DNA from: Candidatus Poribacteria bacterium
GTDB lineage: Bacteria > Abyssobacteria > SURF-5
Direction: 5' to 3'
Assembly (NCBI GenBank): GCA_016215705.1
Contig: JACRIR010000019.1
Span: 1-14,403 of the forward strand
Length of the DNA: 14,403 nucleotides
The notes under the pieces are model-generated. The model ran no database searches. It was not told where the DNA came from and saw only the letters and a list, made by a program, of their open reading frames with translations. A program made the translations under genes and the position numbers. Below, in pieces: positions 1 through 14,049 of the stretch (its first letter is position 1; every line of letters begins with the position of its first letter).

Positions 1-141
1 AAACTTCTTTATCTCCGCATATCCCTTGTGCGACAAACACTTCGTTATCGCCGAGGTCAGCGTCGTCTTCCCATGATCCACGTGACCTATCGTGCCTACG
101 TTCACATGCGGCTTCGTCCGCTCAAATTTCTGCTTGGCCAT
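1..141 (-). CDS. tuf: Elongation factor Tu, N-terminal 47 codons (runs off the window)
   Basis: The reverse strand encodes a protein beginning [20 protein letters not shown], followed by the G1 loop GHVDHGKTT at residues 19-27. This is the canonical start of EF-Tu, the GTPase that delivers aminoacyl-tRNA to the ribosome in the cytoplasm. The ATG is at 141-139 and is preceded by a GAGGAGG ribosome-binding site six bases upstream. Only the first part of the G domain is present; the gene continues beyond base 1. It lies 135 bp downstream of tRNA-Thr(GGT) on the same strand and ends a tRNA-tuf transcription unit whose promoter is at 730-758. The 135-bp leader shows only weak GC-rich hairpins. Identification is essentially certain from the G1 motif and N-terminus. 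Confidence 0.97.
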
Positions 142-276
142 CAGTGCCTCCTCGTTCTTGGGCGAATCCTCACGCAGGCCCCCGGGCGGGCCGTGAAGGC
201 TTGCCGGCACATACTTTCTTATTCGCGGCCCTTACTTTGAGTCTCCGTGCGGGCCGGACTCTTCGTTTTCAGATAG

Positions 277-349
277 AGCCCACGACCGGAATCGAACCGG
301 TGACCACGTGCTTACCATGCACGTGCTCTACCGACTGAGCTACGTGGGC
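277..349 (-). tRNA. tRNA-Thr (anticodon GGT)
   Basis: A complete cloverleaf can be folded on the reverse strand. The acceptor stem is GCCCACG/CGTGGGC, the D stem GCTC/GAGC, and the anticodon stem CGTGC/GCACG around loop ATGGTAA, giving anticodon GGT. The T stem is ACCGG/CCGGT with loop TTCGATT. The discriminator base is T and no CCA is encoded. It is the last tRNA before tuf, matching the position of thrT in the E. coli thrU-tyrU-glyT-thrT-tufB operon. Confidence 0.96.
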
Positions 350-359
350 ATACGCAACG

Positions 360-399
360 CTTATTTGGGACACCATGCGGCATGGTGTCCCCGAATAAG
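360..399. repeat. Palindromic repeat, copy 1 (inside the tRNA operon)
   Basis: The arms GGGACACCATGC (367-378) and GCATGGTGTCCC (380-391) are exact inverse complements around a single G. Outer bases CTTATT and AATAAG also pair, with one bulge and one mismatch. The same element recurs at 2568-2604 and 3768-3814. It lies between tRNA-Gly and tRNA-Thr(GGT), so it should form a stable hairpin in the polycistronic tRNA precursor. No T-run follows on either strand, so it does not look like an intrinsic terminator. It resembles REP-type palindromes mobilised by IS200-like (RAYT) transposases; that link is an inference, since no such gene is in the window. Confidence 0.85.
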
Positions 400-420
400 T
401 GCCGCGGAATTCTTCTTTGG

Positions 421-493
421 AGCGGGAAACGGGATTTGAACCCGCGACCCTCAGCTTGGAAGGCTGACGCTCTACCATCTGAGCTATTCCCGC
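421..493 (-). tRNA. tRNA-Gly (anticodon TCC)
   Basis: The reverse strand folds as a full tRNA. The acceptor stem is GCGGGAA/TTCCCGC, the D arm GCTC-AGATGGTA-GAGC, and the anticodon stem TCAGC/GCTGA around CTTCCAA, giving anticodon TCC. The T arm is GCGGG-TTCAAAT-CCCGT. The discriminator is T and CCA is not encoded. It occupies the glyT position of the conserved tRNA-tuf operon. Confidence 0.96.
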
Positions 494-518
494 ACACAGA
501 TACTGCATCTTAACGCTG

Positions 519-600
519 TGGGGAGAGGAGGATTCGAACCTCCGTAGGCAACGCCAACAGATTTACAGTCTGCCCCCTTTAGCCACTTGGGTATCTCCCC
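519..600 (-). tRNA. tRNA-Tyr (anticodon GTA)
   Basis: The reverse strand shows an acceptor stem GGGGAGA/TCTCCCC, a D arm CCC...GGG, and an anticodon stem GCAGA/TCTGT around CTGTAAA, giving GTA. A long variable arm, as expected for a bacterial class II tRNA-Tyr, is followed by T arm GGAGG-TTCGAAT-CCTCC. The discriminator is A. It is third in order from tuf, as tyrU is in E. coli. Confidence 0.96.
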
Positions 601-635
601 AATCAGGTATGCCCGGGGATATCTCGATTGGCTGG

Positions 636-707
636 AGCTGGCGAAGGGAATCGAACCCCCAACCAGCCGCTTACAAGGCGGCTGCTCTACCTTTGAGCTA
701 CGCCAGC
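636..707 (-). tRNA. tRNA-Thr (anticodon TGT)
   Basis: The reverse strand folds with acceptor stem GCTGGCG/CGCCAGC, D arm GCTC-AAAGGTA-GAGC, and anticodon stem GCCGC/GCGGC around CTTGTAA, giving anticodon TGT. The T stem GGGGG/CCCTT uses two G-T pairs. The discriminator is T. It is the promoter-proximal tRNA of the operon, equivalent to thrU, and its 5' end lies about 16 bases after the predicted transcription start. Confidence 0.96.
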
Positions 708-729
708 ATAGCCGACCCACAGACGAGAA

Positions 730-758
730 ATGTTAGCAGTTTAAGGGCGAAAAGTCAA
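730..758 (-). promoter_or_regulatory. Sigma-70 promoter of the tRNA-tuf operon
   Basis: Read on the reverse strand, TTGACT (758-753) and TAACAT (735-730) are separated by exactly 17 bp. Transcription should start near 723, just ahead of tRNA-Thr(TGT) at 707. A strong promoter here fits the stable-RNA and tuf output of this operon. The assignment rests on sequence match and position. Confidence 0.85.
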
Positions 759-987
759 GAGAGAATCCTATCGACAACCGCGAAGCTGCCGATTTGTTCG
801 CAAATTCAGGAGACAAACAAACCCAAAACTTCGTCCATGCGAAATGGCGTTTCTAAGTGCCTGCCCAAACGTCAATTGTCGGGCACATGAATATGTTTCT
901 TTTCGCCATTGAGCTTTCTAAAAAGTTTAACAGAAACCGAGTCGGTTGTCAAGACACTTCGCTCCCGTGCAAGAATCTGCTAAGTGC
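759..987. other. Divergent intergenic spacer, no gene seen
   Basis: This lies between the leftward tRNA-tuf promoter and the rightward promoter of the GGDEF gene. No supported ORF is present: the rightward ORF over 609-890 begins antisense to a tRNA. There are short possible pairings, AATGGCG (842-848) with CGCCATT (904-910), and TGCC/GGCA arms around 860-886. I do not consider them enough to call an RNA gene. Confidence 0.5.
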
Positions 988-1016
988 TTGACATGCTTGA
1001 GAATATGTGCTATGGT
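988..1016 (+). promoter_or_regulatory. Sigma-70 promoter of the receiver-GGDEF gene
   Basis: TTGACA (988-993) and TATGGT (1011-1016) are 17 bp apart. The -35 is perfect consensus. Transcription would begin near 1023, giving a leader of about 70 nt before the ATG at 1094. This also shows that the longer reading frame from 1007 cannot be the true start, since that codon lies in the promoter. Confidence 0.8.
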
Positions 1017-1093
1017 TTCTTAATTTGTATCACCGGCTGGTCGTCTGTTCCGCTGTTCCGCATTACGCCGTCAATATCTCGAGGGGAAAACAT

Positions 1094-2053
1094 ATGCCGG
1101 AAACCCAATCCCAGGAACGCCCGATTGTGTTGGTCGTCGACGACGAAGAAATCATGCAGAACCTGATGCGCGATATTCTCGAAGCATCCGATTATGCCGT
1201 TGACATTGCCGGCGACGGGGAACAAGCGCTCGAAAAACTGAGATCGAAGAACTTCGCCCTCGTATTTACGGACATCAGAATGCCCAAGATGGATGGGATG
1301 GAGCTTCTCAGACGGGCAAGAAGCCTGAAGCCTGACCTCGATATTATCATGATGACCGGATTTGCCACTGTCAACGTGGCGGTCGAGGCCATGAAGCTGG
1401 GCGCATTGGATTTCATTACGAAGCCATTCAATCTCGACCACATAAGGCTGGTCGCCGGCCGTTCAATTGAGCGCCGGGTGTTGAAGAAGCAGGCCGAGGA
1501 AGGGGAGTACTACAAGAGGCTTTCGCTGACCGACGGTTTGACCGAGCTTTTTAATCACAGGTATTTTCATCAACTGCTAAAGACTGAGTTAAGCCGCTCG
1601 GAACGAAACAATCGTCAATTTTCCCTGCTCATGATAGACGTGGACAACTTCAAGACTTACAACGATACCCTGGGGCATACCGCAGGCGACGAAGCGCTTA
1701 AGTTTCTGGCGTGGCTTCTCAGACACCATGCCCGCGCCTCCGATATGGTGTGCCGTTACGGAGGAGAGGAGTTTGCAGTAATATTGCCCGAGACGAACAA
1801 GGCCGAAGGAAAGATTGCGGGCGAGCGCTTTCGGCGGATTATCGAGGAGACAGTGTTCGAGAATCAGGAGATCATGCCCAACAAGAATTTCACCATCAGT
1901 GTCGGCCTCGCTTCTTATCCCGATGATACTCAATCGGCCGAGGAACTCGTGAAGAGAGCCGATGATGCTCTCTATCAGGCGAAAAGAGGGGGAAGAAACA
2001 GGGTAGCAAGCTGGGGACTCGAGATGAGCAAGAACACGGCTGAAGCACGGTGA
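1094..2053 (+). CDS. Response regulator with GGDEF output domain (diguanylate cyclase)
   Basis: This is a 319-residue cytoplasmic two-domain protein. Residues 10-125 form a CheY-like receiver with acidic pair D16-D17, phosphoacceptor D60 (TDIRMP), T88 and K110 (TKPF). A short charged linker (about 123-142) leads to a GGDEF domain opening with LTDGLTELFNHRYF. It contains GGEEF at residues 223-227, the active-site signature for making cyclic di-GMP from two GTP, and the upstream RxxD (RASD, 214-217) of the product-inhibition I-site. The layout matches PleD/WspR-like enzymes activated by phosphorylation-driven dimerisation. The start is the ATG at 1094, preceded by GAGGGG. No histidine kinase is adjacent, so its partner is unknown. 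It converges on moaB with a single base between the stop codons. Confidence 0.93.
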   Translation: MPETQSQERPIVLVVDDEEIMQNLMRDILEASDYAVDIAGDGEQALEKLRSKNFALVFTDIRMPKMDGMELLRRARSLKPDLDIIMMTGFATVNVAVEAMKLGALDFITKPFNLDHIRLVAGRSIERRVLKKQAEEGEYYKRLSLTDGLTELFNHRYFHQLLKTELSRSERNNRQFSLLMIDVDNFKTYNDTLGHTAGDEALKFLAWLLRHHARASDMVCRYGGEEFAVILPETNKAEGKIAGERFRRIIEETVFENQEIMPNKNFTISVGLASYPDDTQSAEELVKRADDALYQAKRGGRNRVASWGLEMSKNTAEAR

Positions 2054-2054
2054 C

Positions 2055-2543
2055 TCAAGGAGTGCGGCCGCATTCACCTCCTTCGCCTCGGAGGAGCTCG
2101 AGGGCGTGCGGGATGGCGGGCTTGATGAAAGAGAGACACTCCCGGACAGCCTTGGGGCTGCCGGGCAGATTGACAATGAGCGCGCATCCCAGCGTGCCTG
2201 CGACTGCGCGTGAAAGCATTGCCGTCGGAGCGACCTCGACGCTCTTGAGCCGCATGACTTCGGTGATGCCGGGAAGCTCTTTCTGAATAACTGCGCGCGT
2301 AGCTTCGGGCGTGACATCCCTCGGGGCTATGCCGGTGCCACCGGTAGTAAGCACCAGGTCCGCATTCTGCGCCATTCTCCTGAGAGCGGATTCTATCTGA
2401 GGCCGTTCGTCAGGAACAATCTCATAGGCGGCAACTCTGCCTCCCATTCCTTCCACGATCTCGCGTATTGCTGCGCCGCTTTTGTCTTCGCGTTCGCCAC
2501 GGGACCCTTTGTCGCTCACAGTAAGTATTGCCACTCGCATCAT
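2055..2543 (-). CDS. moaB: MogA/MoaB-family molybdenum cofactor biosynthesis protein
   Basis: A 162-residue protein with one MoCF-binding fold. It begins MMRVAILTVSDKGSRG, has TTGGTGIAPRDVTPEAT in the middle and NLPGSPKAV near the end. These are the conserved molybdopterin-binding loops of the MogA/MoaB family. Family members bind molybdopterin, and MogA-type enzymes adenylate it before metal insertion. I cannot tell the MogA from the MoaB subtype, so the symbol is provisional. The frame stays open five codons further (to 2558), but AGAGG at 2553-2549 sits at ideal spacing for the ATG at 2543. It is the last gene of the leftward tup-moa run, 134 bp after the MOSC gene; two repeats fill that gap. 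Confidence 0.9.
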   Translation of the reverse strand: MMRVAILTVSDKGSRGEREDKSGAAIREIVEGMGGRVAAYEIVPDERPQIESALRRMAQNADLVLTTGGTGIAPRDVTPEATRAVIQKELPGITEVMRLKSVEVAPTAMLSRAVAGTLGCALIVNLPGSPKAVRECLSFIKPAIPHALELLRGEGGECGRTP

Positions 2544-2567
2544 TGAATCCTCTCGCAAGCATGAATT

Positions 2568-2604
2568 TATTCGGGGACACCATGCGGCATGGTGTCCCCG
2601 AATA
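2568..2604. repeat. Palindromic repeat, copy 2
   Basis: Arms 2568-2585 and 2587-2604 are perfect 18-bp inverse complements around a single G, with core GGGGACACCATGC. The outer arm ends TATTC and GAATA differ from copy 3, yet remain paired. It lies between the MOSC gene and moaB, just upstream of the moaB ribosome-binding site. No T-run follows. Confidence 0.9.
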
Positions 2605-2641
2605 GACGCACATTTCCATTCCGCTCAAAATTCCGCATTTG

Positions 2642-2668
2642 TATGGGCGAACACACGGTTCGCCCATA
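2642..2668. repeat. Short perfect inverted repeat (11-bp arms)
   Basis: TATGGGCGAAC at 2642-2652 and GTTCGCCCATA at 2658-2668 pair perfectly around a 5-nt loop. It lies 9 bp downstream (in transcription) of the MOSC stop codon and could act as a transcript-stabilising hairpin. There is no clear T-tract on the reverse strand, so an intrinsic terminator is not well supported. Confidence 0.7.
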
Positions 2669-2677
2669 TAAGAATGA

Positions 2678-3130
2678 CTATTCCGAAACCCCCTTTTCCT
2701 CGACAACGATCTCGTCGCACTTCTTGATTGTTCCGCCGCGAAGCACACGCGCAAATATGCCCTCGCGCGGCATCACGCAATCGCCTGCAGCATAGTAAAT
2801 GGCGCACCTGTCGTGGCATTCTTTCCCGATTTGAGTGACCTCGAGAAGGATTTCGCCGATCCGGAGCCTTGTTCCGATCGGCATTTCATAGAGGACGAGC
2901 CCGCGGGTCGTAATGTTTTCAGCGAAGTCTCCGTAGCTTACGTCGAGTCCTTTCTCGCGCATTTTCTCGATGCTTTCCTCAGCGAGCAGGCTCACCTGGC
3001 GATGCCACGCGCCTGCATGCGCGTCGCCCTCGATCCCATGTTCGACGCATAAGGTCGCCGATTCGATGGGGGTCTTGCGCATACCCTTTTCAGCACTGAT
3101 CGAGATGGAGACAACAACGCCTTTCTTCAT
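2678..3130 (-). CDS. MOSC-domain protein (molybdenum cofactor-related)
   Basis: A 150-residue single-domain protein matching stand-alone MOSC (Moco sulfurase C-terminal) proteins. It opens with GVVVSISIS and has VEHGIEGDAHAG at residues 29-40. Then come QVSLLAEE (45-52), GDFAENITTRG (67-77), and the cysteine region GKECHDRCAIY (102-112), followed by GIFARVLRGG. C105 is in the position of the conserved family cysteine thought to carry sulfur or bind the cofactor; C109 and C118 are nearby. MOSC proteins act on sulfur or cofactor delivery to molybdenum/tungsten enzymes. It sits between moaC and moaB on the same strand. The ATG is preceded by GGAGAA. The precise reaction is not known for this subgroup. 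Confidence 0.88.
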   Translation of the reverse strand: MKKGVVVSISISAEKGMRKTPIESATLCVEHGIEGDAHAGAWHRQVSLLAEESIEKMREKGLDVSYGDFAENITTRGLVLYEMPIGTRLRIGEILLEVTQIGKECHDRCAIYYAAGDCVMPREGIFARVLRGGTIKKCDEIVVEEKGVSE

Positions 3131-3153
3131 CTTATTGTCTTCTCCGTTATTCC

Positions 3154-3209
3154 GAGCTAAGCGAAGGATATCATTCTTTTCGTGAGATTCTTCGCTTCGC
3201 TCAGAATGA
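3154..3209. repeat. Imperfect inverted repeat in the moaC-MOSC spacer
   Basis: The stretch around 3154-3170 (GAGCTAAGCGAAGGAT) is the imperfect inverse complement of 3186-3202 (ATTCTTCGCTTCGCTC). An inner TCATTCT (3171-3177) pairs with AGAATGA (3203-3209) in an alternative register. Related sequences are familiar as dispersed intergenic repeats in environmental bacterial genomes. The spacer of 144 bp holds no gene. Confidence 0.55.
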
Positions 3210-3274
3210 CATTCACAAAACCAAGAATGCCATTAATAAAACTGCCCGTGGCAATGATCGGCAGCACGCTCTCC

Positions 3275-3751
3275 TCATTCACGATCCATCTTGTAATGTC
3301 CGCTTTTGCCGCCTGATTTTTCGAGCAGCCGGATGTCTGAGATAATCATTCCTTTTTCGGCCGACTTACACATGTCGTATATCGTCAATGCGGCTACCGC
3401 TGCGGCCGTGAGCGCCTCCATTTCGACGCCGGTCTTGGCGGTCACACGCGCCTCGGCAACGATCACTATTGAATTGCCCGAGGGCTGGAAATCTATTTTC
3501 ACATTCTCCAGGGGCAGCGGATGACAGAGAGGGATCAGCCCGGAGGTTTTCTTTGCCGCCATGATTCCAGCGAGGCGGGCCACTTCAAATACGTCACCTT
3601 TCCGGACTTTCTTGTCGAGGATGAGGCGGAGCGTCTCGGATTTTATGTGGACCGTAGCGCTTGCGCGAGCAATCCTGCGTGTCGGCTGCTTTTCGCCGAT
3701 GTCCACCATCCGCGACGCGCCCCGTTCGTCAAAATGTGATAGCTTTGCCAC
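3275..3751 (-). CDS. moaC: Cyclic pyranopterin monophosphate synthase
   Basis: A 158-residue protein, full length for MoaC. MoaC acts with the radical SAM enzyme MoaA to turn GTP into cyclic pyranopterin monophosphate, the first stage of molybdopterin synthesis. Family hallmarks are LSHFDERGASRMVDI at the start, KGDVFEVARLAGIMAAKKT (51-69), GLIPLCHPLPLENV (71-84) and TGVEMEALTAAAVAALTIYD (107-126) running into MCK. K51, D126 and K129 fall where the catalytic K51, D128 and K131 of the E. coli enzyme are expected. The start is GTG at 3751, with AGAGGA seven bases upstream. It follows tupC by 77 bp containing palindrome copy 3. MoaA is not in the window. Confidence 0.96.
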   Translation of the reverse strand: MAKLSHFDERGASRMVDIGEKQPTRRIARASATVHIKSETLRLILDKKVRKGDVFEVARLAGIMAAKKTSGLIPLCHPLPLENVKIDFQPSGNSIVIVAEARVTAKTGVEMEALTAAAVAALTIYDMCKSAEKGMIISDIRLLEKSGGKSGHYKMDRE

Positions 3752-3767
3752 AGCAAATCCTCTGTTT

Positions 3768-3814
3768 CCCTTAATTCGGGGACACCATGCCGCATGGTGT
3801 CCCCGAATTAAGGG
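3768..3814. repeat. Palindromic repeat, copy 3 (perfect 23-bp arms)
   Basis: Arms 3768-3790 and 3792-3814 are perfect inverse complements around a single C, with the same core as copies 1 and 2. This copy is the longest: the outer CCCTTAATT/AATTAAGGG bases differ from the other copies but stay paired. It fills most of the gap between tupC and moaC and lies just before the moaC ribosome-binding site. Confidence 0.92.
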
Positions 3815-3828
3815 TTTCGGCCAGTTGC

Positions 3829-4860
3829 TCAGATTATGCGGACGGCGCCACAGTCAAAAACGCAGAATATCTCTTCTCCGAGCTTCAACTGGAGTTCGGT
3901 CAAGACTTGCTCAGAAACGACGATGCTGAGTCTTACTCCGATATCCACCGTTACCCGGGCATATGACTCATGCAGCGTCATTCTGACAACTTTTCCCGCA
4001 TGGCAATTGAGAGTTCCGTTTTCGGGAGGACGTCGTGAAAGCATTATATCACGAGAGTCGATGGATATGTGCGCCGGCCCGGTCGCCTCCGAAATGACGT
4101 TGAAGCCGAGTGTTTCATTTACAAAAACCTTGGTCCTGCCGTCGCACTTCTCAAAAATTCCCTTGAATATGTTTTCGTAGGGGAGCGGCTCAATCCGGCC
4201 ATTGCTCAGAAAGATGATACGATGAGCCAGGGCGGAAGCCTGCCGGTAATTGTGCGTCGAGAAGATGATTGTCGTTTTCGCCTCAACGCGGAGGTGACGG
4301 ATCAGGGACTCAACGTCACGCGCGTATTTCTTGTCTATGCTTGCGGTAGGTTCGTCGAGCAAGAGCACTTCGGGCTCGAGGGCAAGAGCCCTTGCCAGGG
4401 CCACTCGTTGCTGCTGGCCGGAGGACAACGTCCGCGCGCTTCTTTTCTCAAAGCCGGCGAGCCCGACGGTTTCAAGAGCTTCAGAGGTCTTTGTCTTGAC
4501 GTCGTTGCGCGATTTTCTCCTGAGCTTCAGGCCGTATCCGATGTTATACGCCACCGTCCGGTTGAACAGAAAAGGAGGATGTGCGACCATGGTCACGCGC
4601 CTCATGAGGGCGGTTTGATTCATTGCTCCGTTCCACACGGGAATCGAATCAAACACTATTTCTCCCGAGGTCGGGCGTTCGACGAAGGCCAGCAGTCGAA
4701 GCAGGGTTGTTTTCCCCGAACCATTTGGTCCCACGAGAGCGCATGTTTCTCCCCGGGCGAAGTGAAGGCTCGGAATGTCCAATGCGAAATCGCCGTTGTA
4801 GGATTTCTTGATGCTGGTCAGCTTGTAGAATTCCGGAGGCATAGCGGCAGATTCGTTCAT
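3829..4860 (-). CDS. tupC: Tungstate/molybdate-type ABC transporter ATP-binding protein
   Basis: A 343-residue ABC ATPase that would energise oxyanion import with the adjacent permease. Visible motifs are Walker A GPNGSGKTT (44-52), signature LSSGQQQR (145-152), Walker B VLLLDEPT (165-172), D-loop TASID and switch H203 (STHN). Where the Q-loop glutamine is expected (VFQxPxLF) this protein reads VAHPPFLF, placing H94 there. The second residue of the usual SGG signature is serine. About 110 C-terminal residues after the ATPase core resemble the TOBE/MOP-like oxyanion-binding extension of ModC/TupC/WtpC. The ATG overlaps the permease stop in an ATGA, with GAGGGG upstream, so the two are translationally coupled. 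Tungstate rather than molybdate is inferred from the TupB-like partner. Sulfate or another anion is less likely. Confidence 0.85.
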   Translation of the reverse strand: MNESAAMPPEFYKLTSIKKSYNGDFALDIPSLHFARGETCALVGPNGSGKTTLLRLLAFVERPTSGEIVFDSIPVWNGAMNQTALMRRVTMVAHPPFLFNRTVAYNIGYGLKLRRKSRNDVKTKTSEALETVGLAGFEKRSARTLSSGQQQRVALARALALEPEVLLLDEPTASIDKKYARDVESLIRHLRVEAKTTIIFSTHNYRQASALAHRIIFLSNGRIEPLPYENIFKGIFEKCDGRTKVFVNETLGFNVISEATGPAHISIDSRDIMLSRRPPENGTLNCHAGKVVRMTLHESYARVTVDIGVRLSIVVSEQVLTELQLKLGEEIFCVFDCGAVRII

Positions 4861-5549
4861 ATTCCCCTCAAGCGGAAGCTCTGCACGACTGCGTTCACGG
4901 ATAGCGCGATGAGTAGCAGTATGATGCCGAGCGCCATTGCCAGAGAGAACTCTCCCTTTCCGGTCTCGAGAGCGATTGCGGTCGTCATTGTTCGCGTGTA
5001 CCCGTGAATGTTGCCGCCGAGAATCATCGCGGCTCCGACTTCGGCGATTACGCGACCGAAACCGGCTGCGATGGCGACGACTATCGAGTAACGGGCCTCG
5101 CTCAAGATGGCGGACGCTCTTTGCAGGGCGTTGGCGCCGAGCGTTCGAGCGGTCTCACCGACACGCGCGTCGATAGCTTTTGTCGCCGCGAGAGAAAGCG
5201 CGACAATGATCGGCGTTGCGAGAATGAACTGGCCTATTATCATTGCGGTCGGTGTGAACAGCAGGCCGTACGCCCCGAGCGGACCGCGCCTGGATATAAA
5301 CGAATAGATCGTTAGTCCAACGACGACCGTCGGTATTGCCATCGAGGTGTTGAGGGCAATTTCCATCTGATGCTTGCCTCTGAACCGGCTGACTGCGAGC
5401 GTGAACCCCAACGGGACGCCGACGATGCTCGCCAGCGCGGTGGATATGAGAGAGACCCGGAGTGAAGTCCAGACAATGACTGCAAGCTCGCGATCGAGAT
5501 GGATAATCAGCCGGAAGGCTTTTGTGAATGCTTCAAGAATATAGTTCAT
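4857..5549 (-). CDS. tupB: Tungstate-type ABC transporter permease
   Basis: A 230-residue inner-membrane permease with about five or six hydrophobic segments. TWTSLRVSLISTALAS-like sequence follows the N-terminal amphipathic part, then GVPLGFTLAVSRFRGK and NTSMAIPTVVVGLTIY. The ATPase-docking loop is ETARTLGANALQ, followed by IAAGFGRVIAEVGAAMILGGNI. The AEVGAAMILGGNI region and the size are typical of TupB-like tungstate permeases of the ModB/CysT fold. The ATG at 5549 has only a weak ribosome-binding site. It heads the leftward run tupB-tupC-moaC-MOSC-moaB. The binding protein TupA normally precedes it, but none is found in the 442 bp upstream. The nearest promoter is at 5837-5865. Confidence 0.88.
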   Translation of the reverse strand: MNYILEAFTKAFRLIIHLDRELAVIVWTSLRVSLISTALASIVGVPLGFTLAVSRFRGKHQMEIALNTSMAIPTVVVGLTIYSFISRRGPLGAYGLLFTPTAMIIGQFILATPIIVALSLAATKAIDARVGETARTLGANALQRASAILSEARYSIVVAIAAGFGRVIAEVGAAMILGGNIHGYTRTMTTAIALETGKGEFSLAMALGIILLLIALSVNAVVQSFRLRGI

Positions 5550-5566
5550 AGCCCGAGAACCGACCT

Positions 5567-5675
5567 TAAGCCACAGAGGGAGCCCAGAACACGGAGCTAG
5601 AGAAGCAGAAAATCTTGCTGTGGCCGACGAAGAGATTCTGTTTCAATCCGCAATCCGAAATCGAAAATCCGAAAT
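5567..5675. repeat. Composite simple-repeat tract upstream of tupB
   Basis: Positions 5644-5671 are built of near-heptamers (CAATCCG, CAATCCG, AAATCGA, AAATCCG), which on the reverse strand read as GGATTT-type units. Positions 5567-5600 (AAGCCACAGAGGGAGC...) resemble another common CACAGAG-type intergenic repeat. Together they separate the truncated ORF at 5687-5785 from tupB. No gene is supported within this tract. Confidence 0.6.
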
Positions 5676-5686
5676 AAAATAACCAG

Positions 5687-5785
5687 TCCCCATACCTCAT
5701 GGAACTGGCGTTCGGCCAACAATTTCTCCTTTCCGAGGATGGGGGGCGCGGACGTTTCCATCGTCGCCTGCCGTTCAACCCCCAT
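5687..5785 (-). pseudogene. Truncated ORF, possible N-terminus of a class I methyltransferase
   Basis: An ATG at 5785 has a GGAGG at 5800-5796 and a consensus promoter at 5865-5837. The frame reads MGVERQATMETSAPPILG, then KEKLLAERQFHEVWG, and after about 33 codons enters the heptamer repeat (translated RIFDFGLRIE) and stops at 5597. The LLAERQFHEVW segment resembles the opening of small SAM-dependent methyltransferases (LLAxRxFHDxWA), but this is from memory and very short. It looks like a gene start whose remainder has been deleted or replaced by repeat DNA. It could instead be a non-functional leader. Confidence 0.3.
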
Positions 5786-5836
5786 AGCCTTTTCGCCTCC
5801 GGCATTAGGCAGGTTGAATCGGAGAAATCTGAATCT

Positions 5837-5865
5837 ATTATAGTCGAGCTGGTCGTATGAGTCAA
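5837..5865 (-). promoter_or_regulatory. Near-perfect sigma-70 promoter facing tupB
   Basis: On the reverse strand TTGACT (5865-5860) and TATAAT (5842-5837) are separated by exactly 17 bp. Transcription should start near 5830. The first ATG downstream is the truncated ORF at 5785; the first intact gene is tupB at 5549, about 280 nt away. It probably drives the tup-moa genes through the remnant. Confidence 0.8.
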
Positions 5866-5991
5866 ACGGGACAGGGAATGATGAATGATGAAGAATAAAA
5901 ACGGGGCAACTGAGAACGTTTACTTGATTTGCGAATCGAGGACTGAGTGAATCCTCACCGAATAAAATTATGTCATCTTACATAGAATCGG

Positions 5992-6522
5992 TCAAGAGGG
6001 TTCTCCCTTGCCCATTGACCGTATCCGTGCGATGTCTTCGTCCGGAATGCACAGGAACTTGAGAAACTCCCGGTGCTTCTCGGGAGCGAGCCGCTCAAAC
6101 TCGACGTGCCACCGGAGCATATCCTCGTCGCTGAAGCCGGATGCCCGCAGCAGCGACATCCACACTTCCGCATTCATCACTCTTATCCGCCGGCGATATT
6201 GTCTCCGTTTGAGAATGCCAAGGATGAATCGCTGTTGTTCTCTGAGGCGCCCGATGTCATCATTCAGCTCCTCCAACCGTTTCTCGAGCGCCTTTGTGAG
6301 AGTGTTTCCGGGGGAGTCCAGCACATTTGCGATTTCCTTGAGCGACAGCCCGGCCTGACGATACCTGCAAATCTGCTCGAGCCTCTTCGCGTCACTCCCG
6401 GAATATTGCCGGTATTCACTTTCGGTTCTCGCAGACGGTTTGAGCAGGCCGATGGAATCGTAATAGAGCAGAGTGCTCCGCGAGAGACCGAATTTTCGCG
6501 CCAATCTCCCTATCGTGTGCAT
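5992..6522 (-). CDS. MerR-family transcriptional regulator
   Basis: A 176-residue DNA-binding regulator. The N-terminal winged helix-turn-helix reads MHTIGRLARKFGLSRSTLLY, then YDSIGLLKPSAR and YRQYSGSDAKRLEQI, followed by RQAGLSLKEIANVLD. A coiled-coil dimerisation helix (about 75-115, KALEKRLEELNDDIGRLREQ) follows. The C-terminal part (VWMSLLRASGFSDEDMLRW, then EFERLAPEKHREFLKF and IARIRSM) is an effector-type segment seen in other MerR-like proteins. It lacks an obvious Cys metal site, so it probably senses something other than a metal. The ATG at 6522 has GGGGAGGG upstream; a GTG seven codons earlier is in frame but less likely. It lies on the same strand as the SRPBCC gene, whose promoter has MerR-type geometry. 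Confidence 0.9.
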   Translation of the reverse strand: MHTIGRLARKFGLSRSTLLYYDSIGLLKPSARTESEYRQYSGSDAKRLEQICRYRQAGLSLKEIANVLDSPGNTLTKALEKRLEELNDDIGRLREQQRFILGILKRRQYRRRIRVMNAEVWMSLLRASGFSDEDMLRWHVEFERLAPEKHREFLKFLCIPDEDIARIRSMGKGEPS

Positions 6523-6636
6523 TCCCCGCCCTCCCCTCTTCACAACATCGCAAACCTCTTTACCGCTCGGTTTCGGTATCGCGAATTCTTGTCGCTATTT
6601 CCGCCACCCCTTTTGCAGAAGGCGACTACTGATTGT

Positions 6637-6720
6637 CCCCTTTATTAAAGGGGGGCAGGGGGATTTTCCCTGTGCATCTCGCTCGTTTTCTCGAAATGGA
6701 TTCCCGTTTGCGCAGGAATG
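6637..6720. repeat. Two small hairpin repeats upstream of merR
   Basis: CCCCTTTA (6637-6644) and TAAAGGGG (6646-6653) pair perfectly around one T, followed by GGCAGGGGGATTT. This resembles the CCCCCTTTG...AAAGGGGGATTT repeat at 14297-14400. ATTCC (6700-6704) and GGAAT (6715-6719) flank CGTTTGCGCA, a form of the widespread ATTCCCGC...GCGGGAAT repeat. The surrounding stretch 6523-6754 shows no gene and no convincing promoter for merR. Confidence 0.55.
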
Positions 6721-6754
6721 ACGTAAAGCGTGTAGCTTCCTTGTATTATTACAA

Positions 6755-6881
6755 GTGTGGTGTCTCAGAAATAACTTAAAGCGTTGCGAAGGGGACTGTC
6801 CCAGATTTACGGGCGCTTTGCGCCGTAGAATCGGGACTGTCCCCGAAGCACAAATGTAAAGAAGCGTTAGAGACACTACAC
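6755..6881. mobile_element. 127-bp MITE-like element with 12-bp terminal inverted repeats
   Basis: The left end GTGTGGTGTCTC (6755-6766) and the right end GAGACACTACAC (6870-6881) are inverse complements with one mismatch. Inside, GGGGACTGTCCC and GGGACTGTCCCC flank ACGGGCGCTTTGCGCCGT, giving a large nested stem. It encodes no protein. A second copy at 14170-14264 is 95 bp long, differs at 5 positions and has no indels, but lacks the left end. No target-site duplication is obvious. Size, ends and copy number suggest a non-autonomous transposable element; the family is not recognised. Confidence 0.65.
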
Positions 6882-6909
6882 CAGGAACCAGGAACTAGGA
6901 ACCGGGAAC
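6881..6909. repeat. Heptanucleotide tandem array (CCAGGAA-type, 4 units)
   Basis: From 6881 the sequence runs CCAGGAA, CCAGGAA, CTAGGAA, CCGGGAA, CCG in perfect 7-nt register. It starts at the last base of the 127-bp element and runs into the 3' end of the SRPBCC gene, whose TAG stop lies in the third unit. Confidence 0.8.
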
Positions 6910-7386
6910 CGTTTCTCTGAGCATCTCACCTTTGGTCAGATAATGATTCAGCGAGTTGTTTGTCCACTGCGTCATCAGATCAAGAAATTCACCGGTAATG
7001 TGTTCAAGAACCCGGTTTCCGTCCGGACTTAGCCCCGTGTACGTGCGGCGCCAGTGAATTATTGAGCCATTATCTCCCGCCTCGAGCCAGACGTCAAGTT
7101 TTTCGACTGCCATGCCGGGATAGACAATCACAAACTCGATGCTGAAATTCTCGTTATCGTATTTGCTGACTACCCATGTTCCCTCACCGAGGCCATGAGG
7201 GAACTCCGTCTTGAATATGCAGTTGTTCTCCGCAACGCCTGACTCCGAATAGACCATTTCGCAGGCCCATCCATGAATCCAGTCGTATTCCCTTACAGGA
7301 CAGAGGAGGGGGAAGACTTCTTCACGAGGCGCCACAAGTTGGTAAGCATCCTGTTTCACGAATCGCTTTGGCGTAAAGTTGGCCAT
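6895..7386 (-). CDS. SRPBCC-fold (START/Bet v1-like) protein
   Basis: A 163-residue soluble protein beginning MANFTPKRFVKQDAYQLVAP, followed by REEVFPLLCPVREYDWI. The latter is the typical opening of a SRPBCC domain (a helix-grip fold with a deep hydrophobic pocket). Middle strands read GLGEGTWVVSKYD, FSIEFVIVYPGMAVEKLDVW and IIHWRRTYTGLSPDGN. A long C-terminal helix (residues about 125-155) closes the pocket. Members bind or modify hydrophobic ligands; no catalytic residues can be named here. The ATG has GGAAAGGG upstream. A promoter with a 19-bp spacer lies about 100 bp before it and a MerR gene is downstream, suggesting ligand-responsive control. The last four residues (VPGS) and the stop are encoded by the heptamer array, so the original C-terminus may have been altered. 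Confidence 0.75.
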   Translation of the reverse strand: MANFTPKRFVKQDAYQLVAPREEVFPLLCPVREYDWIHGWACEMVYSESGVAENNCIFKTEFPHGLGEGTWVVSKYDNENFSIEFVIVYPGMAVEKLDVWLEAGDNGSIIHWRRTYTGLSPDGNRVLEHITGEFLDLMTQWTNNSLNHYLTKGEMLRETVPGS

Positions 7387-7484
7387 ATTTTCCCTTTCCG
7401 GGGCAAGACGAATGCCCTCGAGCCGCTACCCTTGATGATTCCTCAGTCAACTCATCCTCACGGCGATGTTCCACGTTGTACGAC

Positions 7485-7515
7485 AGTCTAAACTATAAAG
7501 CTGTAGTCAGGTCAA
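7485..7515 (-). promoter_or_regulatory. Candidate MerR-regulated promoter (19-bp spacer)
   Basis: On the reverse strand TTGACC (7515-7510) and TAGACT (7490-7485) are 19 bp apart. This over-long spacing is characteristic of promoters activated by MerR proteins through DNA distortion. The spacer contains an ACTA...TAGT dyad with a matching A/T pair inside (ACTAnA-n4-TnTAGT). It lies 99 nt upstream of the SRPBCC start codon. Assignment to the MerR gene at 5992-6522 is inference from proximity. Confidence 0.5.
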
Positions 7516-7580
7516 GCATTTTTTCGAGTAGAAGAAGGGGAAAGGCGAAAGAGGTCAAGGAGAGGGAAAAAACACTTTCC

Positions 7581-8459
7581 CTATATTCTTATCCCCAATA
7601 TTCTCTGCGCGTTGGTGAGAAATATCTTTTCAAGAATATCGTCGCGGTAGCCTTCGGAGGCGTAGGCGTCGAAGAGTTTCTGGTGAGGGATCATGGGATA
7701 GTCGGAGCCGAACATCGCGCGGTCCTGCAGGCGGCCGTGCAGTTCCTTCTTGAGGGCGGGGGAGAAGTACTTCGGGGACCAGCCTGAGAGTTCCATCACG
7801 ACGTTGGACTTGTGGATGAGCACCGCGATCATCTCGTCCTGCCACGGCCACGAAGGATGACACGCGATAATGAGGAGCTCGGGGAAATCGGCTGCGACAT
7901 CATCTATATAAGGAATGGGCCTCGTGTATTTGAGGTGGATGCCCAAGCCGCCGGGCATGCCCGCTCCGAGGCCGGTTGTGCCGGTATGGAACATCACGGG
8001 CGCTTTGAGTTCGACACACTTTTCCCACAGCGGGTAGAACCTCCGGTCATTCGGAAAGAATGCCTGCGCCGATTGCTGGAACTTCACGCCCATCAGCTTC
8101 AGTTCCTTAATCGAGCGTTCGGCCTCCTTGATCGCCATTTCGCCTTTCCACGGGTCAACGCAGGCAAAGCCCCCGACGAAGGCCTGGGGATAATCGCTCG
8201 TAAGCCTGGCGACATAGTCGTTGCTCGTGGCCGGTTGGCCGGTGTTCGTCTCGGCGTCCCATGCGACGATGATTCCTTTCACGCCTGCGTCGACGAAATC
8301 CTGCGCCATATCTTCCTCGGTCTTTGAGATTGCGAGCACTTCTTCATCCGATAGCTCCCGCTTCTGATAATATTGCATAAGCGCTTTTTGATATTTCAGC
8401 ATGCTTTTGGCGGCGGCGCGTGTTGAGGGGTGCGCATGAACGTCGATGGCTTTTAGCAC
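7581..8459 (-). CDS. Amidohydrolase-superfamily (amidohydrolase 2) metalloenzyme
   Basis: A 292-residue TIM-barrel hydrolase or decarboxylase of the ACMSD/gamma-resorcylate decarboxylase-like group. Metal-binding residues are visible: HxH at H8/H10 (DVHAHPS), H158 (MFHTGTTG), H201 (ACHPSWPW) and D253 (FGSDYPM). These enzymes hydrolyse or non-oxidatively decarboxylate aromatic or cyclic carboxylates using Zn or Mn. The substrate cannot be told from sequence. The start is GTG at 8459, with GGAG six bases upstream. It begins 13 nt after the stop of the flippase gene, so the two are probably co-transcribed. A 7-bp hairpin (AGGGAAA 7563-7569 with TTTCCCT 7576-7582) overlaps the stop codon but lacks a convincing T-run. 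Confidence 0.88.
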   Translation of the reverse strand: MLKAIDVHAHPSTRAAAKSMLKYQKALMQYYQKRELSDEEVLAISKTEEDMAQDFVDAGVKGIIVAWDAETNTGQPATSNDYVARLTSDYPQAFVGGFACVDPWKGEMAIKEAERSIKELKLMGVKFQQSAQAFFPNDRRFYPLWEKCVELKAPVMFHTGTTGLGAGMPGGLGIHLKYTRPIPYIDDVAADFPELLIIACHPSWPWQDEMIAVLIHKSNVVMELSGWSPKYFSPALKKELHGRLQDRAMFGSDYPMIPHQKLFDAYASEGYRDDILEKIFLTNAQRILGIRI

Positions 8460-8472
8460 CTCGATCTCCTTT

Positions 8473-9831
8473 TCATTTTTCTGATATCCGCTGGCCGTGG
8501 TCTAACGACTTCTTTTGAGGCAAGAAGGTATAAACCAGAATCGAGACCATCAGCGCCATGCCGCCGGCGGCGATTGTCAATAGGACTGACATGGGCGTGG
8601 GATGGAACAGCCAGACCGCTGCGAACGTAAGAACTGTGAGCGGCACAAGCATCAAGATAAAACCATGTCGGTCGTTGGCGAGGTTATAATTCACCAAAAT
8701 AGTGGTCGTGGCGACAGGCGTTATGGCGACGCCAAAAAGTCTTATGAGTGCGACGAGTTCGGGCGCATCCGTCTTCGCAAGGAACAGCGCCAGGTGACGA
8801 CCCAAAATGACGCAGGCGCCGATTCCGCAAAGAGAAAGCAATACTTCGATGCCGAGACCGCGTAAGAGTATCGGCGTCGGATTCTCGCCGACGGCTTTCT
8901 TGCGGGCGACCTTCGGGAAGAGGGCCAATATTATCCCCATAGGCAGGAACAGAAAGCCCTTTCCCACGATTGAGGCGGTGGCGTAATAGCCCGCCAGCTT
9001 CAGACCCTCACCCTGCTCTCCGTAGAAATGGCGCACGAGCGCAATGTCGAGATTGCAGAAGAAACTCAAGGGAAAGAGTGCGACCACGACAGGAGCGGCA
9101 AACCTGTAGATTCGGCGCATGTCGATGGAGTCATCCTCCTCCGGCAGCGCAAGCACTTCTCGTATCGGCCAGAAGCCGACGGCAAAAGCAAGGATAAACG
9201 ACAGGGTTACACCGAGAAGCACGCCGCCGACACCCCATCCGATGACTGCGAACAGTATTCCGAGACCACACTTAGTGACGAACCCGGTGAAGTACGACAT
9301 CCCCAGATAGCCGAACTGCTCGTTCCCTTGCAGCACGGCCCAGAAGACCGGCATTGTGAACGTGAAGAACAGGAGTACGCCCGAGGCGATGATCGGGGCG
9401 TTCTTCTGAATATTGAAGAACTCTCCGATAATGGGCGCTCCCAATATTGCAAGGGCCATGAGGATGAATGCGACGACGCTCACGCGTTTGAAGCACTCTA
9501 GCAGCAATCTCCTTACTTTGGAATATTCGCCTCGAGCGCCGAACTGCGCGACAAACTTCGTTATGGTGGTCTGAACCGTGATAATCGGGATCGCTGCCAC
9601 ATACAACAGCGACAGCAACGAATTGAGGGCGCTATAGTCATCGGGCCCGAGGTTCCGGCTCATATAGATATGGAAATAGAACGTGAAAACATTGCCGAGG
9701 CCGGTAATAAGAATGAGGAAGCCTTCATCAAAGATGCTGTCTTTCTTTTGAGGAATCGCTCCCACAACAGGGCTCTCGATTTTGGATTCTCGATTTTGGA
9801 TTTTGGATTCTCCTTTATCCGCAGATTTCAC
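8473..9831 (-). CDS. Polysaccharide flippase-like multi-pass membrane protein (MOP/Wzx-type)
   Basis: About 452 residues with roughly 12 hydrophobic segments and an N-terminal domain typical of oligosaccharide flippases. It reads GFLILITGLGNVFTFYFHIY, then MSRNLGPDDYSALNSLLSLL and PIITVQTTITKFVAQF. Such proteins move lipid-linked sugars across the inner membrane; no glycosyltransferase is nearby to fix the substrate. The start is uncertain. The longest frame begins at GTG 9831 inside repeat DNA, and residues 8-20 (ESKIQNR ESKIES) are translated heptamers. The next ATG is around residue 58, inside the first conserved segment, and is too late. A start near residue 23 (GTG) or at the repeat-encoded GTG is most likely. 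The amidohydrolase gene follows closely. Confidence 0.8.
   Translation of the reverse strand: MKSADKGESKIQNRESKIESPVVGAIPQKKDSIFDEGFLILITGLGNVFTFYFHIYMSRNLGPDDYSALNSLLSLLYVAAIPIITVQTTITKFVAQFGARGEYSKVRRLLLECFKRVSVVAFILMALAILGAPIIGEFFNIQKNAPIIASGVLLFFTFTMPVFWAVLQGNEQFGYLGMSYFTGFVTKCGLGILFAVIGWGVGGVLLGVTLSFILAFAVGFWPIREVLALPEEDDSIDMRRIYRFAAPVVVALFPLSFFCNLDIALVRHFYGEQGEGLKLAGYYATASIVGKGFLFLPMGIILALFPKVARKKAVGENPTPILLRGLGIEVLLSLCGIGACVILGRHLALFLAKTDAPELVALIRLFGVAITPVATTTILVNYNLANDRHGFILMLVPLTVLTFAAVWLFHPTPMSVLLTIAAGGMALMVSILVYTFLPQKKSLDHGQRISEK
9778..9812. repeat. Heptanucleotide tandem array (GATTTTG/GATTCTC, 5 units)
   Basis: The sequence runs GATTTTG, GATTCTC, GATTTTG, GATTTTG, GATTCTC in exact 7-nt register. 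On the reverse strand it is read in frame as part of the proposed N-terminus of the flippase (KIQNRESKIES). Related units occur at 5644-5671 and 14009-14025. Confidence 0.8.
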
Positions 9832-9850
9832 AGATTTTCACTGGCTATGA

Positions 9851-9985
9851 TTTAACCGCAAAGGCGCAAAGGTCGCGAAGGAAAACAGCGGAGAAGGAAC
9901 ACGAATCAAGTTTACTACACGAATGAAAGAAACCCTTTCTCATCTTCTGGCCTTACTTTGCGCTCTTTGCGCCTTTGCGGCTAAA
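9851..9985. repeat. Long inverted repeat (30-bp arms) between hemW and the flippase gene
   Basis: The left arm at 9851-9880 and the right arm at 9956-9985 are inverse complements at 26 of 30 positions (core CCGCAAAGGCGCAAAG), separated by 75 bp. A third, single copy of the unit is at 14050-14075. The spacer between hemW and the flippase (9832-10039) contains no gene. The structure could form a large stem-loop in read-through transcripts. Confidence 0.8.
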
Positions 9986-10039
9986 TTGGTCTTCTCGGGT
10001 TTCCCGTTTGTCTTTCGCCTTTTACCCCCCCCAATTCTC

Positions 10040-11161
10040 TTATGGCAAGATTCTAAGTGCTACCTCGTTGGCCAGATGCCAGCCTTTGGCGGACGATTTG
10101 ATGGTTTGACCGTCCCATTCGAGGAGGCCGAGGCCGGTAAGATCGCTCAGAGAGCTCCCGAGCGCCTTCTCCAGAGAAATCCCAAACCTGCCTGCAAACG
10201 AGTCGGAGTCAACGCCGTCTTTCAGTCGAAGCCTCTGTATTATTGTCTCGATAGCCTGCATGTTGGGAGGAATGCTTTCAATCTCGCAGACCGCGTCCCC
10301 TCGGGTTTCCATCGCGCGAATGTAAGCTTGCGGGCCGCGCAGATTGGTTATCCGGCTGCCGCCAAGATACGAGACTGCGCTCGCGCCCAGTCCTAGATAC
10401 TCCTCGTTCGACCAATAGACCATATTGTGACGCGAGCGTCTGCCGGGGAGCGCAAAGTTCGAAATCTCGTAGTGCTCGTAGCCTGCGTCGCTTAGTGTTT
10501 CTAGAGCTATTTCATATAATTCGAGTTCCCCTTCGTCGGATTTCTTCTTTATCTTTCCCTCTTCCAGCAATTTCAAAAATCGCGTCGCAGGCTCAAATGT
10601 GAGGCAATAGGTGGAGACGTGTTCCGGTTCCATCTCGACTGCGCGAGCGAGTGAATTCCGCCAACTCTCGACGGACTGATTCGGAATGGCATATATCAGA
10701 TCGACACTGATATTTTCAATACCGGCTCTCCTCAGCAATGAGAAAGCTCGCGCGACGTCCACTGCCCGATGCTGCCGTCCCAGGAAGGAAAGTTCTGCGT
10801 CATCAAAACTCTGTGCTCCGAGACTCACGCGGTTGACGCCGGTTGCGGCGAGCACGTCGGCTTTGGCTGCATCGAGGCTGCACGGGTTGGCCTCGAGTGT
10901 TATCTCTGCAAGGGGCGATATATCAAGAACCTCTCGCAAATGTTCGAGCAACCAGCGAATCCGGCCCGGCGACAAAATAGTGGGTGTGCCGCCGCCGACG
11001 TATAGAGTTTCGACTGAGGAGAGTGTGGCGGACATTTGTTCCGCCTCGACGACGAGTGCGCGGAGATAGGAATCGAGACTGTCATTAATCGGAACTGAAG
11101 CGAAATCGCAGTATGGGCACTTGGATGTGCAATAGGGGATATGAAGGTAGACGGCTGTCAT
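10040..11161 (-). CDS. hemW: HemW-like radical SAM protein (coproporphyrinogen oxidase-related)
   Basis: A 373-residue radical SAM protein. The cluster motif C11-x3-C15-x2-C18 appears as HIPYCTSKCPYCDFAS, followed by GGGTPTIL (56-63), LEANPCSL, RVSLGAQSF and the family block HNMVYW. The length and the CPYCDF signature match HemW, formerly annotated as oxygen-independent coproporphyrinogen III oxidase. HemW is now regarded as a heme chaperone that binds heme and an iron-sulfur cluster and delivers heme to membrane targets. True HemN normally has a longer N-terminus and a CxxxCxxCxC pattern. The ATG lies 17 nt after the lepB stop, so it is probably in the lepA-lepB-hemW unit, though its ribosome-binding site is weak. 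Confidence 0.92.
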   Translation of the reverse strand: MTAVYLHIPYCTSKCPYCDFASVPINDSLDSYLRALVVEAEQMSATLSSVETLYVGGGTPTILSPGRIRWLLEHLREVLDISPLAEITLEANPCSLDAAKADVLAATGVNRVSLGAQSFDDAELSFLGRQHRAVDVARAFSLLRRAGIENISVDLIYAIPNQSVESWRNSLARAVEMEPEHVSTYCLTFEPATRFLKLLEEGKIKKKSDEGELELYEIALETLSDAGYEHYEISNFALPGRRSRHNMVYWSNEEYLGLGASAVSYLGGSRITNLRGPQAYIRAMETRGDAVCEIESIPPNMQAIETIIQRLRLKDGVDSDSFAGRFGISLEKALGSSLSDLTGLGLLEWDGQTIKSSAKGWHLANEVALRILP

Positions 11162-11178
11162 GACGGATGGCCCAAGGT

Positions 11179-11868: not shown

Positions 11869-12134
11869 GCCTTCCTATCCTTTCAATGTTTCCTCCGGCA
11901 AACGCCTCTTCTTTTTCTTCTTACTTTTTCTTTCCTCAAATCCACGTCCATCTGTGTGTATCTGTGGTGAAAAATGTTTCTTTTTCTTCTTTTCCCGGAA
12001 TCCCTGTAATCTGCGAAATCTGCGGATTCCCCGTTTCTTCTTTTGGTTGTAGGGGACAGCCCGCTATGCTACTCACGTTCGAAATCTTGAATTCCAGTCG
12101 GGATTCCCTTTTCTTCTTCTTTCTCACCGATCGC
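11869..12134. other. lepA-lepB spacer with purine tracts and short repeats
   Basis: 266 bp between lepA and lepB hold no supported gene. Four CTTCTT/TTTTTCTTCTT-type tracts (about 11907-11933, 11977-11994, 12033-12045, 12109-12125) read as GAAGAAAAA on the transcribed strand. Between them are two simple direct repeats: CATCTGTGTGTATCTGTGG (11950-11968) and ATCTGCGAAATCTGCGG (12010-12026, in a GGAATCC...GGATTCC frame). No clear promoter for lepB is seen. Confidence 0.6.
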
Positions 12135-13931
<1,797 letters not shown>

Positions 13932-13976
13932 ACACCTATTCTAAGCCTTCCAAAGTTTAAATGGATCAAACATTTA

Positions 13977-14005
13977 ATTATAGCAGAATATCGGCAGGGC
14001 TTCAA
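13977..14005 (-). promoter_or_regulatory. Extended -10 sigma-70 promoter of lepA
   Basis: On the reverse strand TTGAAG (14005-14000) and TATAAT (13982-13977) are 17 bp apart, and TGC directly precedes the -10, giving an extended -10 element. A start near 13970 gives a leader of about 40 nt to the lepA ATG at 13931. The -35 lies only a few bases from the heptamer array at 14009. Confidence 0.78.
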
Positions 14006-14008
14006 ATT

Positions 14009-14025: not shown

Positions 14026-14049
14026 TGGGCCGGAAGAAGAGAGGTTCCC

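Follow-up and report, generated by a model that had tools for sequence, protein, structure and literature searches.

Near-perfect palindromes dispersed through a Candidatus Poribacteria genome, probably fused terminal repeats of a Y1 transposon

A family of palindromes, numbering at least 417 copies in one genome and scattered between its genes, is represented three times in a 14,403-nucleotide stretch of DNA from Candidatus Poribacteria bacterium (GTDB lineage Bacteria; Abyssobacteria; SURF-5). This stretch, referred to below as the window, comprises positions 1 to 14,403 of the forward strand of contig JACRIR010000019.1 in assembly GCA_016215705.1. Each palindrome consists of two arms (family consensus SNWWAWTYGGGGACACSWTGC) that meet head to head at one central base. 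The palindromes are probably non-autonomous, gene-less hairpin elements, each made of two fused terminal inverted repeats (TIRs) of a Y1 transposon of the TIRYT type. Their likeliest source is a Y1 HUH transposase element of this kind, represented in the window's genome by RAYT-B (a gene related to the transposases associated with repetitive extragenic palindromes, or REPs), the ends of which read TTATTCCGGGGACATAATACC.

Copy number, anatomy and change of the arms

The window's own genome (5.47 Mb in 270 contigs, 92% complete) contains 360 places within three mismatches of GGACACCATGCNGCATGGTGTCC and 417 within three mismatches of the wider GGGGACACSNTGCNGCANSGTGTCCCC, while the reversed pattern gave none in either search; the palindrome first noticed in the window is thus not absent from the rest of the genome. 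Of 97 perfect hairpins (arm at least 11 bp, loop at most 8) in a 780-kb sample, 76 are members of the family. Folded as single strands, the three window copies are more stable than shuffled sequences, with z from -6.6 to -10.6, and the whole palindrome forms one stem with a 3-nt loop in which the arms pair with each other around the one central base. The share of hairpins that belong to the family, the 417 matches against none for the reversed pattern, and these folding scores argue that the palindromes are not a product of chance.

Statistics on covariation and genomic context were drawn from a 1.64-Mb sample made up chiefly of contigs chosen for holding copies, so that the number of copies per kb in it is not a genome average (20 contigs with no listed copies held 3 in 205 kb). 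From this sample 189 palindrome elements were extracted, compared with 8 in a reversed-sequence control. With d as the distance in bases from the centre of the palindrome, Watson-Crick pairing stands at 81-96% for d2-20, 70-72% at d1 and d21, and 44% at d22, reaching background from d24. The GGGGACA block at d7-13 is almost invariant, and hence barely informative on pairing, but several pair types occur at d5, d14, d16 and d18-21. When partners are shuffled, pairing at the most variable positions (d5, d16, d18-21) is 28-46%. At d20, for example, 54 CG, 51 GC, 37 TA and 14 AT pairs were counted, and 83% of copies are paired as against 28% with shuffled partners. The covariation of arm ends, which the first-pass annotation had proposed from the three window copies, therefore extends across the family as a strong pairing bias. 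The outer arm has a consensus of its own, SNWWAWTY, and the inner arms include CCATGC, CGATGC and CCTTGC. Perfect pairing across 21 bp is found in 59 elements with 35 distinct arms, and pairing over d2-21 (20-bp arms) is perfect in 76 elements with 42 distinct arms; over the 21 pairs, 130 of the 189 copies in the sample carry one mismatch or more.

Changes were counted by comparing each copy with its nearest neighbour, not on a tree, so that old subfamilies could carry old changes. In the core (d7-13) there was a single double-sided change against 13 one-sided mismatches, and at d14-19 the corresponding counts were 29 and 25 (Fisher p=0.002). Because of these counts it appears that core and outer arm are both hit by one-sided decay, but that it is chiefly the outer arm, together with d5, that changes in step. 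A copy is detected only if both arms come close to GGGGACA, which introduces some bias against core changes while still admitting symmetric single ones. Compensated changes comprise 32 transversions and 15 transitions, in contrast to 33 transversions and 77 transitions among one-sided changes (p=1.6e-5), and some perfect arm classes, such as TTAATTC and TTATTC, can be linked by a one-base deletion in both arms. The excess of transversions among compensated changes is circumstantial evidence, though not proof, of one-step arm copying, as a stepwise route through G-T pairs predicts the opposite pattern of transitions and transversions. A tentative suggestion, which we hold possible but less than even in its chances, is that the arms are rewritten jointly in single events, one arm being copied into the other by fold-back or template-switch synthesis during transposition or replication, with GGGGACA alone held by selection. 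If this is true, a mutation in one arm, even a transversion or a one-base deletion, would be symmetric in the next generation, making a "self-perfecting" palindrome. Pairing that is kept despite sequence change is accordingly no proof by itself of selection on structure, given that arm-to-arm copying has the same outcome.

Some copies have unusual surroundings. Half-unit arrays arranged head to tail (27-29 bp units, or two arm types alternating) run into a full palindrome at L148:3823-3936, L134:5050-5137, L039:13537-13640 and L027:5514-5575, and in the last of these the palindrome and the adjacent array units have the rare arm CATAATCC in common, as if the palindrome had been made from the units. 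Three chimeric copies (L041:4345, L042:5750 and L054:3751, all on the minus strand) keep the outer stem and GGGGACA, with the inner arm swapped for a hairpin, GTCCCGCC..GGCGGGAT.

A family of this kind might in principle arise with no transposase at all, from a single inverted duplication that spread by recombination or tandem slippage and was made perfect by template switching ("quasipalindrome correction"). Paired changes and perfect hairpins are documented to arise by template switching (PMC8794818, PMC7202029), half-unit arrays adjoin some of the palindromes, and among the compensated changes are transversions as well as arm pairs that a one-base deletion on both sides connects. Such a passive process, however, should rewrite GGGGACA as often as the outer arm, which is at odds with the ratios of 1:13 in the core and 29:25 at d14-19 (p=0.002), and it leaves unexplained why copies are dispersed in their hundreds, why the boundary at d21-23 is fixed and why ends are held in common with RAYT-B; we regard it as improbable. 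Template-switch hairpins and E. coli quasipalindrome mutation resemble the present case in that arm changes are paired through copying of one arm from the other, but they describe a mutation process and not a family of elements, and here enter only as a possible cause of arm matching.

Transposase genes and the palindromes of other genomes

Three Y1_Tnp genes were found in the window's genome. RAYT-A (contig C225) has a DnaA-like C-terminal domain, ends in GGGGTCAGGTCTTG and carries the TIR motif GGGGTCAG. RAYT-B, which contains the Y1_Tnp domain, is present twice on contig C28 (Table 1), with a frame between the copies that looks leucine-rich-repeat-like by eye. Inverted repeats of TTATTCCGGGGACATAATACC bound the second copy at both ends; the first retains its right end, the left being lost at the contig start. 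The two resemble each other precisely as far as the repeat's outer end, GGAATAA, and no further, from which it follows that the outer arm belongs to the mobile unit. These ends carry the outer arm and GGGGACA just as the palindromes do (TTATTC-GGGGACA compared with TTATTCCGGGGACA), and differ in the inner arm. The GGGGWSAS motif occurs in at least one arm of 144 of the 147 well-paired palindromes, and in both arms of 114, while the genome's own RAYT-B has GGGGACAT, one base off this motif. A transposase gene with exactly the same palindrome as its flanks was not found. The expectation of a Y1/RAYT gene so flanked is thus borne out for the outer arm and GGGGACA, but not for the inner arm (ATAATACC against CCATGC), and fused flanks occur only with homologues in Elusimicrobiota.

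In the mechanism that seems to fit best, the repeat, when single-stranded, for instance at a replication fork, would fold into one long hairpin as the presumed intermediate. The transposase, which we take to be RAYT-B, would read the GGGGACA block and the paired stem, cut, and re-insert the repeat, mostly at tolerated intergenic places near gene 3' ends. The arms would then diversify in step, since a fixed sequence would be required in GGGGACA alone and the remainder would have only to pair. Their close matching may be due to selection during spread, to template switching that copies one arm into the other, or to both.

In its exact form, and with A or T at the centre, the core also occurs in Elusimicrobia metagenome-assembled genomes (MAGs) and once in an Acidobacteriota MAG. 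It is present in 10 of 294 Elusimicrobiota genomes, some of them with CACCTTGC or CACCCTGC arms that also pair; whole-genome counts are 141 in G060 (X2_MetaBAT.4), 19 in G061, 11 in G063 and 1 in G062, and the survey of the 294 genomes gave 140 in G060, 15 in G351 and 5 in G251. In G060 pairing mostly ends at d13; the Elusimicrobiota element is mostly the 27-bp core alone with unpaired flanks. A wide occurrence of the core among bacteria was rejected: none of 385 other genomes drawn as relatives of the window's genome has it, and among these it is confined to that genome itself. The 385 include two of the same family (three genomes of which are in the collection), in which GGGGACA palindromes are few and their inner arms are different ones. 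One of them, G002, has a small set of its own, GGGGACAGAGCCC..GGGCTCTGTCCCC, with varied loop lengths, in which the end block is shared and the inner arm is different.

RAYT-B homologues at E<1e-40 are present in 6 of the 10 palindrome genomes of Elusimicrobiota and in 25 of the 284 others (Fisher p=1.3e-4, uncorrected for relatedness). G351 and G063 have the closest, which share at least 77% identity with the protein of G060, and G060, G063 and G351 are three of the four Elusimicrobiota genomes with at least 11 core copies. Inverted repeats of GGGGACAC/T lie on both sides of 10 of 12 inspected RAYT-B loci, often as ..AATTCGGGGACACAATACC, and in G060, G063 and G351 the flanks of RAYT-B are themselves fused palindromes, GGGGACACAATACCTATTTCGG..CCGAAATAGGTATTGTGTCCCC.

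It might be supposed that only a 27-bp palindrome moves, and that it inserts into the middle of existing palindromic targets from which the outer pairing is inherited. Some REP families do sit within target palindromes (T. roseum and H. neapolitanus; PMC3733652), and the predominance of the unpaired-flank core in Elusimicrobiota would agree with this. The two RAYT-B copies, however, terminate precisely with the outer arm, this arm shows a consensus of its own, and no bare outer palindromes ending ATTC or AATC (8-bp arms) were found in 1.64 Mb. Pre-existing palindromic targets were consequently rejected as the origin of the outer arms, and the idea, already largely refuted, retains hardly any credibility.

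A nested arrangement of another sort was seen with a separate GTAG REP family of the window's genome, which is host to some of the palindromes. Palindromes of the subclass AGAAAATC..GATTTTCT occupy the spacer of the GTAG REP doublet GGGCGCGATGAATCGCGCCCCTACAG..CTGTAGGGGCGCAATTCATTGCGCCC. In the 1.64-Mb sample this doublet holds the palindrome at about 12 loci and is empty at about 25 (16 and 47 rows, as most loci appear on both strands). More than one junction layout exists among occupied doublets. Some copies (e.g., L150:5672, L140:16891 and L051:2608) are repeatedly flanked by AGAAACCGGCGACTGTTTCC and, on the opposite side of the palindrome, by CTGTTTCTTTC or GCCGGTTTCT. These recurring flanks may represent a larger element, a host repeat that is preferred or a target that was duplicated; for the larger flank AGAAACCGGC..GCCGGTTTCT around some copies, no consistent model of a target or an outer repeat was obtained.

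Several points weigh against derivation of the palindromes from a RAYT-B-type transposon. The RAYT-B ends carry the inner arm ATAATACC and not the CCATGC, CGATGC or CCTTGC of the palindromes. The association over 294 genomes disregards kinship among them; G061, with its 19 copies, has only a distant RAYT-like gene, G251, with 5, has none at E<=1e-20 (both being MAGs, in which absence is weak evidence), and several genomes have RAYT-B-like genes and no such palindromes. The empty doublets are paralogues, and a small number of insertions, followed by spread as a composite, may account for the occupied form. What known RAYTs read are strand-specific features (a GTAG tag, loop or bulge; PMC8266576), and a perfect palindrome does not have these. 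Mobility, finally, is read from sequences, transposition itself not having been observed.

Gene context and the copies in the window

Gene calls in the sample came from a home-made hexamer caller, which gave 1414 genes and 85% coding sequence. By this measure 157 well-paired copies are intergenic and 12 lie inside or overlap called genes. Of the intergenic copies, 117 are between co-directional genes (104 expected from intergenic bases), 27 between convergent genes (14 expected) and 13 between divergent genes (38 expected). The first-pass annotation had placed the palindromes always between co-transcribed genes, which is true of the window and not of the sample; the general rule is an intergenic position that avoids divergent promoters, in line with what PMC3733652 describes for REPs. 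A run of four T within 10 nt was found beside 5 of 147 palindromes, where 10.6 would be expected. The sample agrees with the window, in which no copy is followed by a T-run, as had been remarked at the outset, and a reading as intrinsic terminators (a G+C-rich hairpin, then a T-run) was rejected for want of any T-run excess.

The hairpins might nevertheless be kept by selection as functional RNA at transcript 3' ends, for termination or for control of mRNA stabilization and decay, with the compensated arms representing ordinary RNA covariation. The avoidance of divergent gaps in favor of co-directional and convergent ones, the very stable RNA fold (-40.6 kcal/mol for copy 3) and the pairing kept through sequence change are all in keeping with this, and E. 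coli REPs are reported, in work that PMC3733652 cites, to act on mRNA stability and attenuation. The bias to 3' ends is, however, equally expected if insertions near promoters are purged, and the shortage of T-runs (5 against 10.6), the tolerance of decay (130 of 189 copies mismatched) and the predominance of transversions among compensated changes (32 to 15, where a route through G-U pairs predicts transitions) do not suit it. Patchy, genome-specific copy number and nested empty sites look more like a mobile repeat. An RNA function as the cause of the family therefore seems unlikely, if less so than its spread without a transposase.

All three palindromes reported in the window are present (Table 1). 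Copy 3 bears out the remark that arms of up to 23 bp meet with almost no loop. Outer bases had been said to differ between copies (TATTC/GAATA versus TTAATTC/GAATTAA) and yet to pair, and copies 2 and 3 agree with this; in copy 1 the left arm reads TTATTT-GGGACAC against CCCCGAATAA, one base having been lost and one C changed to T.

Table 1. Palindromes and adjoining genes of the window, and the RAYT-B copies elsewhere in the same genome
Feature	Position	Strand	Description
Palindrome copy 1, decayed	360..399	.	CTTATTTGGGACACCATGC-g-GCATGGTGTCCCCGAATAAG, centre 379; inner 12-bp arms perfect
Palindrome copy 2	2568..2604	.	TATTCGGGGACACCATGC-g-GCATGGTGTCCCCGAATA, centre 2586; 18-bp arms perfect
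Palindrome copy 3	3768..3814	.	CCCTTAATTCGGGGACACCATGC-c-GCATGGTGTCCCCGAATTAAGGG, centre 3791; 23-bp arms, 100% complementary, 1-nt centre
tRNA-Thr (ggt)	276..349	-	Adjoins copy 1
tRNA-Gly (tcc)	418..493	-	Adjoins copy 1
MoaB/Mog-type molybdopterin-binding gene	2055..2558	-	PF00994; 3' side of copy 2 in leftward unit
MOSC-domain gene	2678..3130	-	PF03473; 5' side of copy 2 in leftward unit
moaC	3275..3751	-	PF01967; 3' side of copy 3 in leftward unit
ABC transporter ATPase (ModC-like)	3829..4860	-	PF00005; 5' side of copy 3 in leftward unit
RAYT-B copies	L020:1-679 and 1691-2432 (contig C28)		Direct orientation, ~1 kb apart; 15 differences over 679 bases

Copies 2 and 3 lie within a leftward molybdenum-cofactor gene cluster (MoaB/Mog-type, MOSC, MoaC and ABC ATPase genes), upstream of which is a match to the molybdenum/tungsten riboswitch at 5710-5836 on the minus strand (Moco RNA motif, Rfam RF01055, 54.5 bits). 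Other repeats in the window include a REP-like hairpin, GGGCGAACACACGGTTCGCCC, at 2639-2671, which adjoins copy 2 and has 2 strict matches in the 1.64-Mb sample; a repeat around CATTCTGAGCGAAGCGAAGAATC at 3157-3230, found at 63 places in the sample; and the C/T-rich inverted repeats CCCCCTTTG..AAAGGGGG at 14299-14401, a separate dispersed family with 37 places in the sample.

Relation to known repeats and significance

The nearest known systems are those described by Di Nocera in 2013 (PMC3733652), in which RAYT-like genes are flanked by GGGGWSAS TIRs (TIRYT, or "TIRtrons") and the TIR repeats are moderately abundant, occurring as singles, dimers and clusters. Quentin in 2018 (PMC6006769) assigned most TIRYT to subclass 2.1, with the consensus GGGG[AT][CG]A[CG]. 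The present family is alike in having a Y1 gene (IS200-like and RAYT-related) with GGGGWSAS TIRs, and short dispersed TIR repeats that are often in dimers or clusters. It differs in that two TIRs are fused at a single central base, that copies number at least 417 as compared with the "moderately abundant" families of PMC3733652, and that arm classes vary in step; nor do the host bacteria appear among those covered in that paper. Judged from sequence, assignment to TIRYT is favored by gene type and the GGGGWSAS motif, repeat and RAYT-B TIR agreeing in the outer arm and GGGGACA and differing in the inner arm. The palindromes are best considered a variant of the TIR-repeat kind and not a separate kind; a literature search with the literal motif returned no relevant match.

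The resemblance to REPs and RAYTs noted in the first-pass annotation is sound insofar as the palindromes are genome-wide, extragenic and covarying and have the outer arm and GGGGACA in common with RAYT-B ends, but these are TIRYT-type ends, and the palindromes are not GTAG REPs and have no polarity. With the classical GTAG REPs and bacterial interspersed mosaic elements of enterobacteria and pseudomonads they share an extragenic palindromic form, a bias to gene 3' ends and a transposase superfamily, and like the repeats of GTAG REP/RAYT systems ("REPtrons") they are high-copy, extragenic and 3'-biased. They lack GTAG and strand polarity, however, and are fully symmetric. GTAG was found within 16 nt on the 5' side, on either strand, of 4 of 147 palindromes, where 6.6 are expected from random intergenic positions, and membership in the GTAG REPs is rejected. 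REPINs, the RAYT-linked doublets in which Bertels and Rainey (2011, PMC3116915) found compensatory stem changes, are comparable as hundreds of short extragenic inverted doublets that form one single-stranded DNA hairpin, with invariant blocks, compensatory stem changes and attribution to a RAYT. A REPIN comprises two inverted REPs, each an imperfect palindrome, and a spacer. The present palindromes fold as one stem, their halves having no imperfect hairpin of their own, no GTAG and practically no spacer, and their invariant block is mid-arm and not at the ends as in REPINs; they were not classed as REPINs.

TIRYT-type repeats were named in 2013. In the window's genome, a fused-TIR family is very abundant and nearly perfect and has many variants of the arm. 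The family separates the part that would be read as sequence (GGGGACA) from the part needed for pairing only (the outer stem). Of interest is why the arms match so well, and here it provides dozens of cases in which stepwise compensation can be weighed against template copying in one step, a good natural test of how perfect palindromes survive. The same 23-bp core is found in high copy in an unrelated phylum with homologous transposases, making the pairing of enzyme and repeat testable by experiment.

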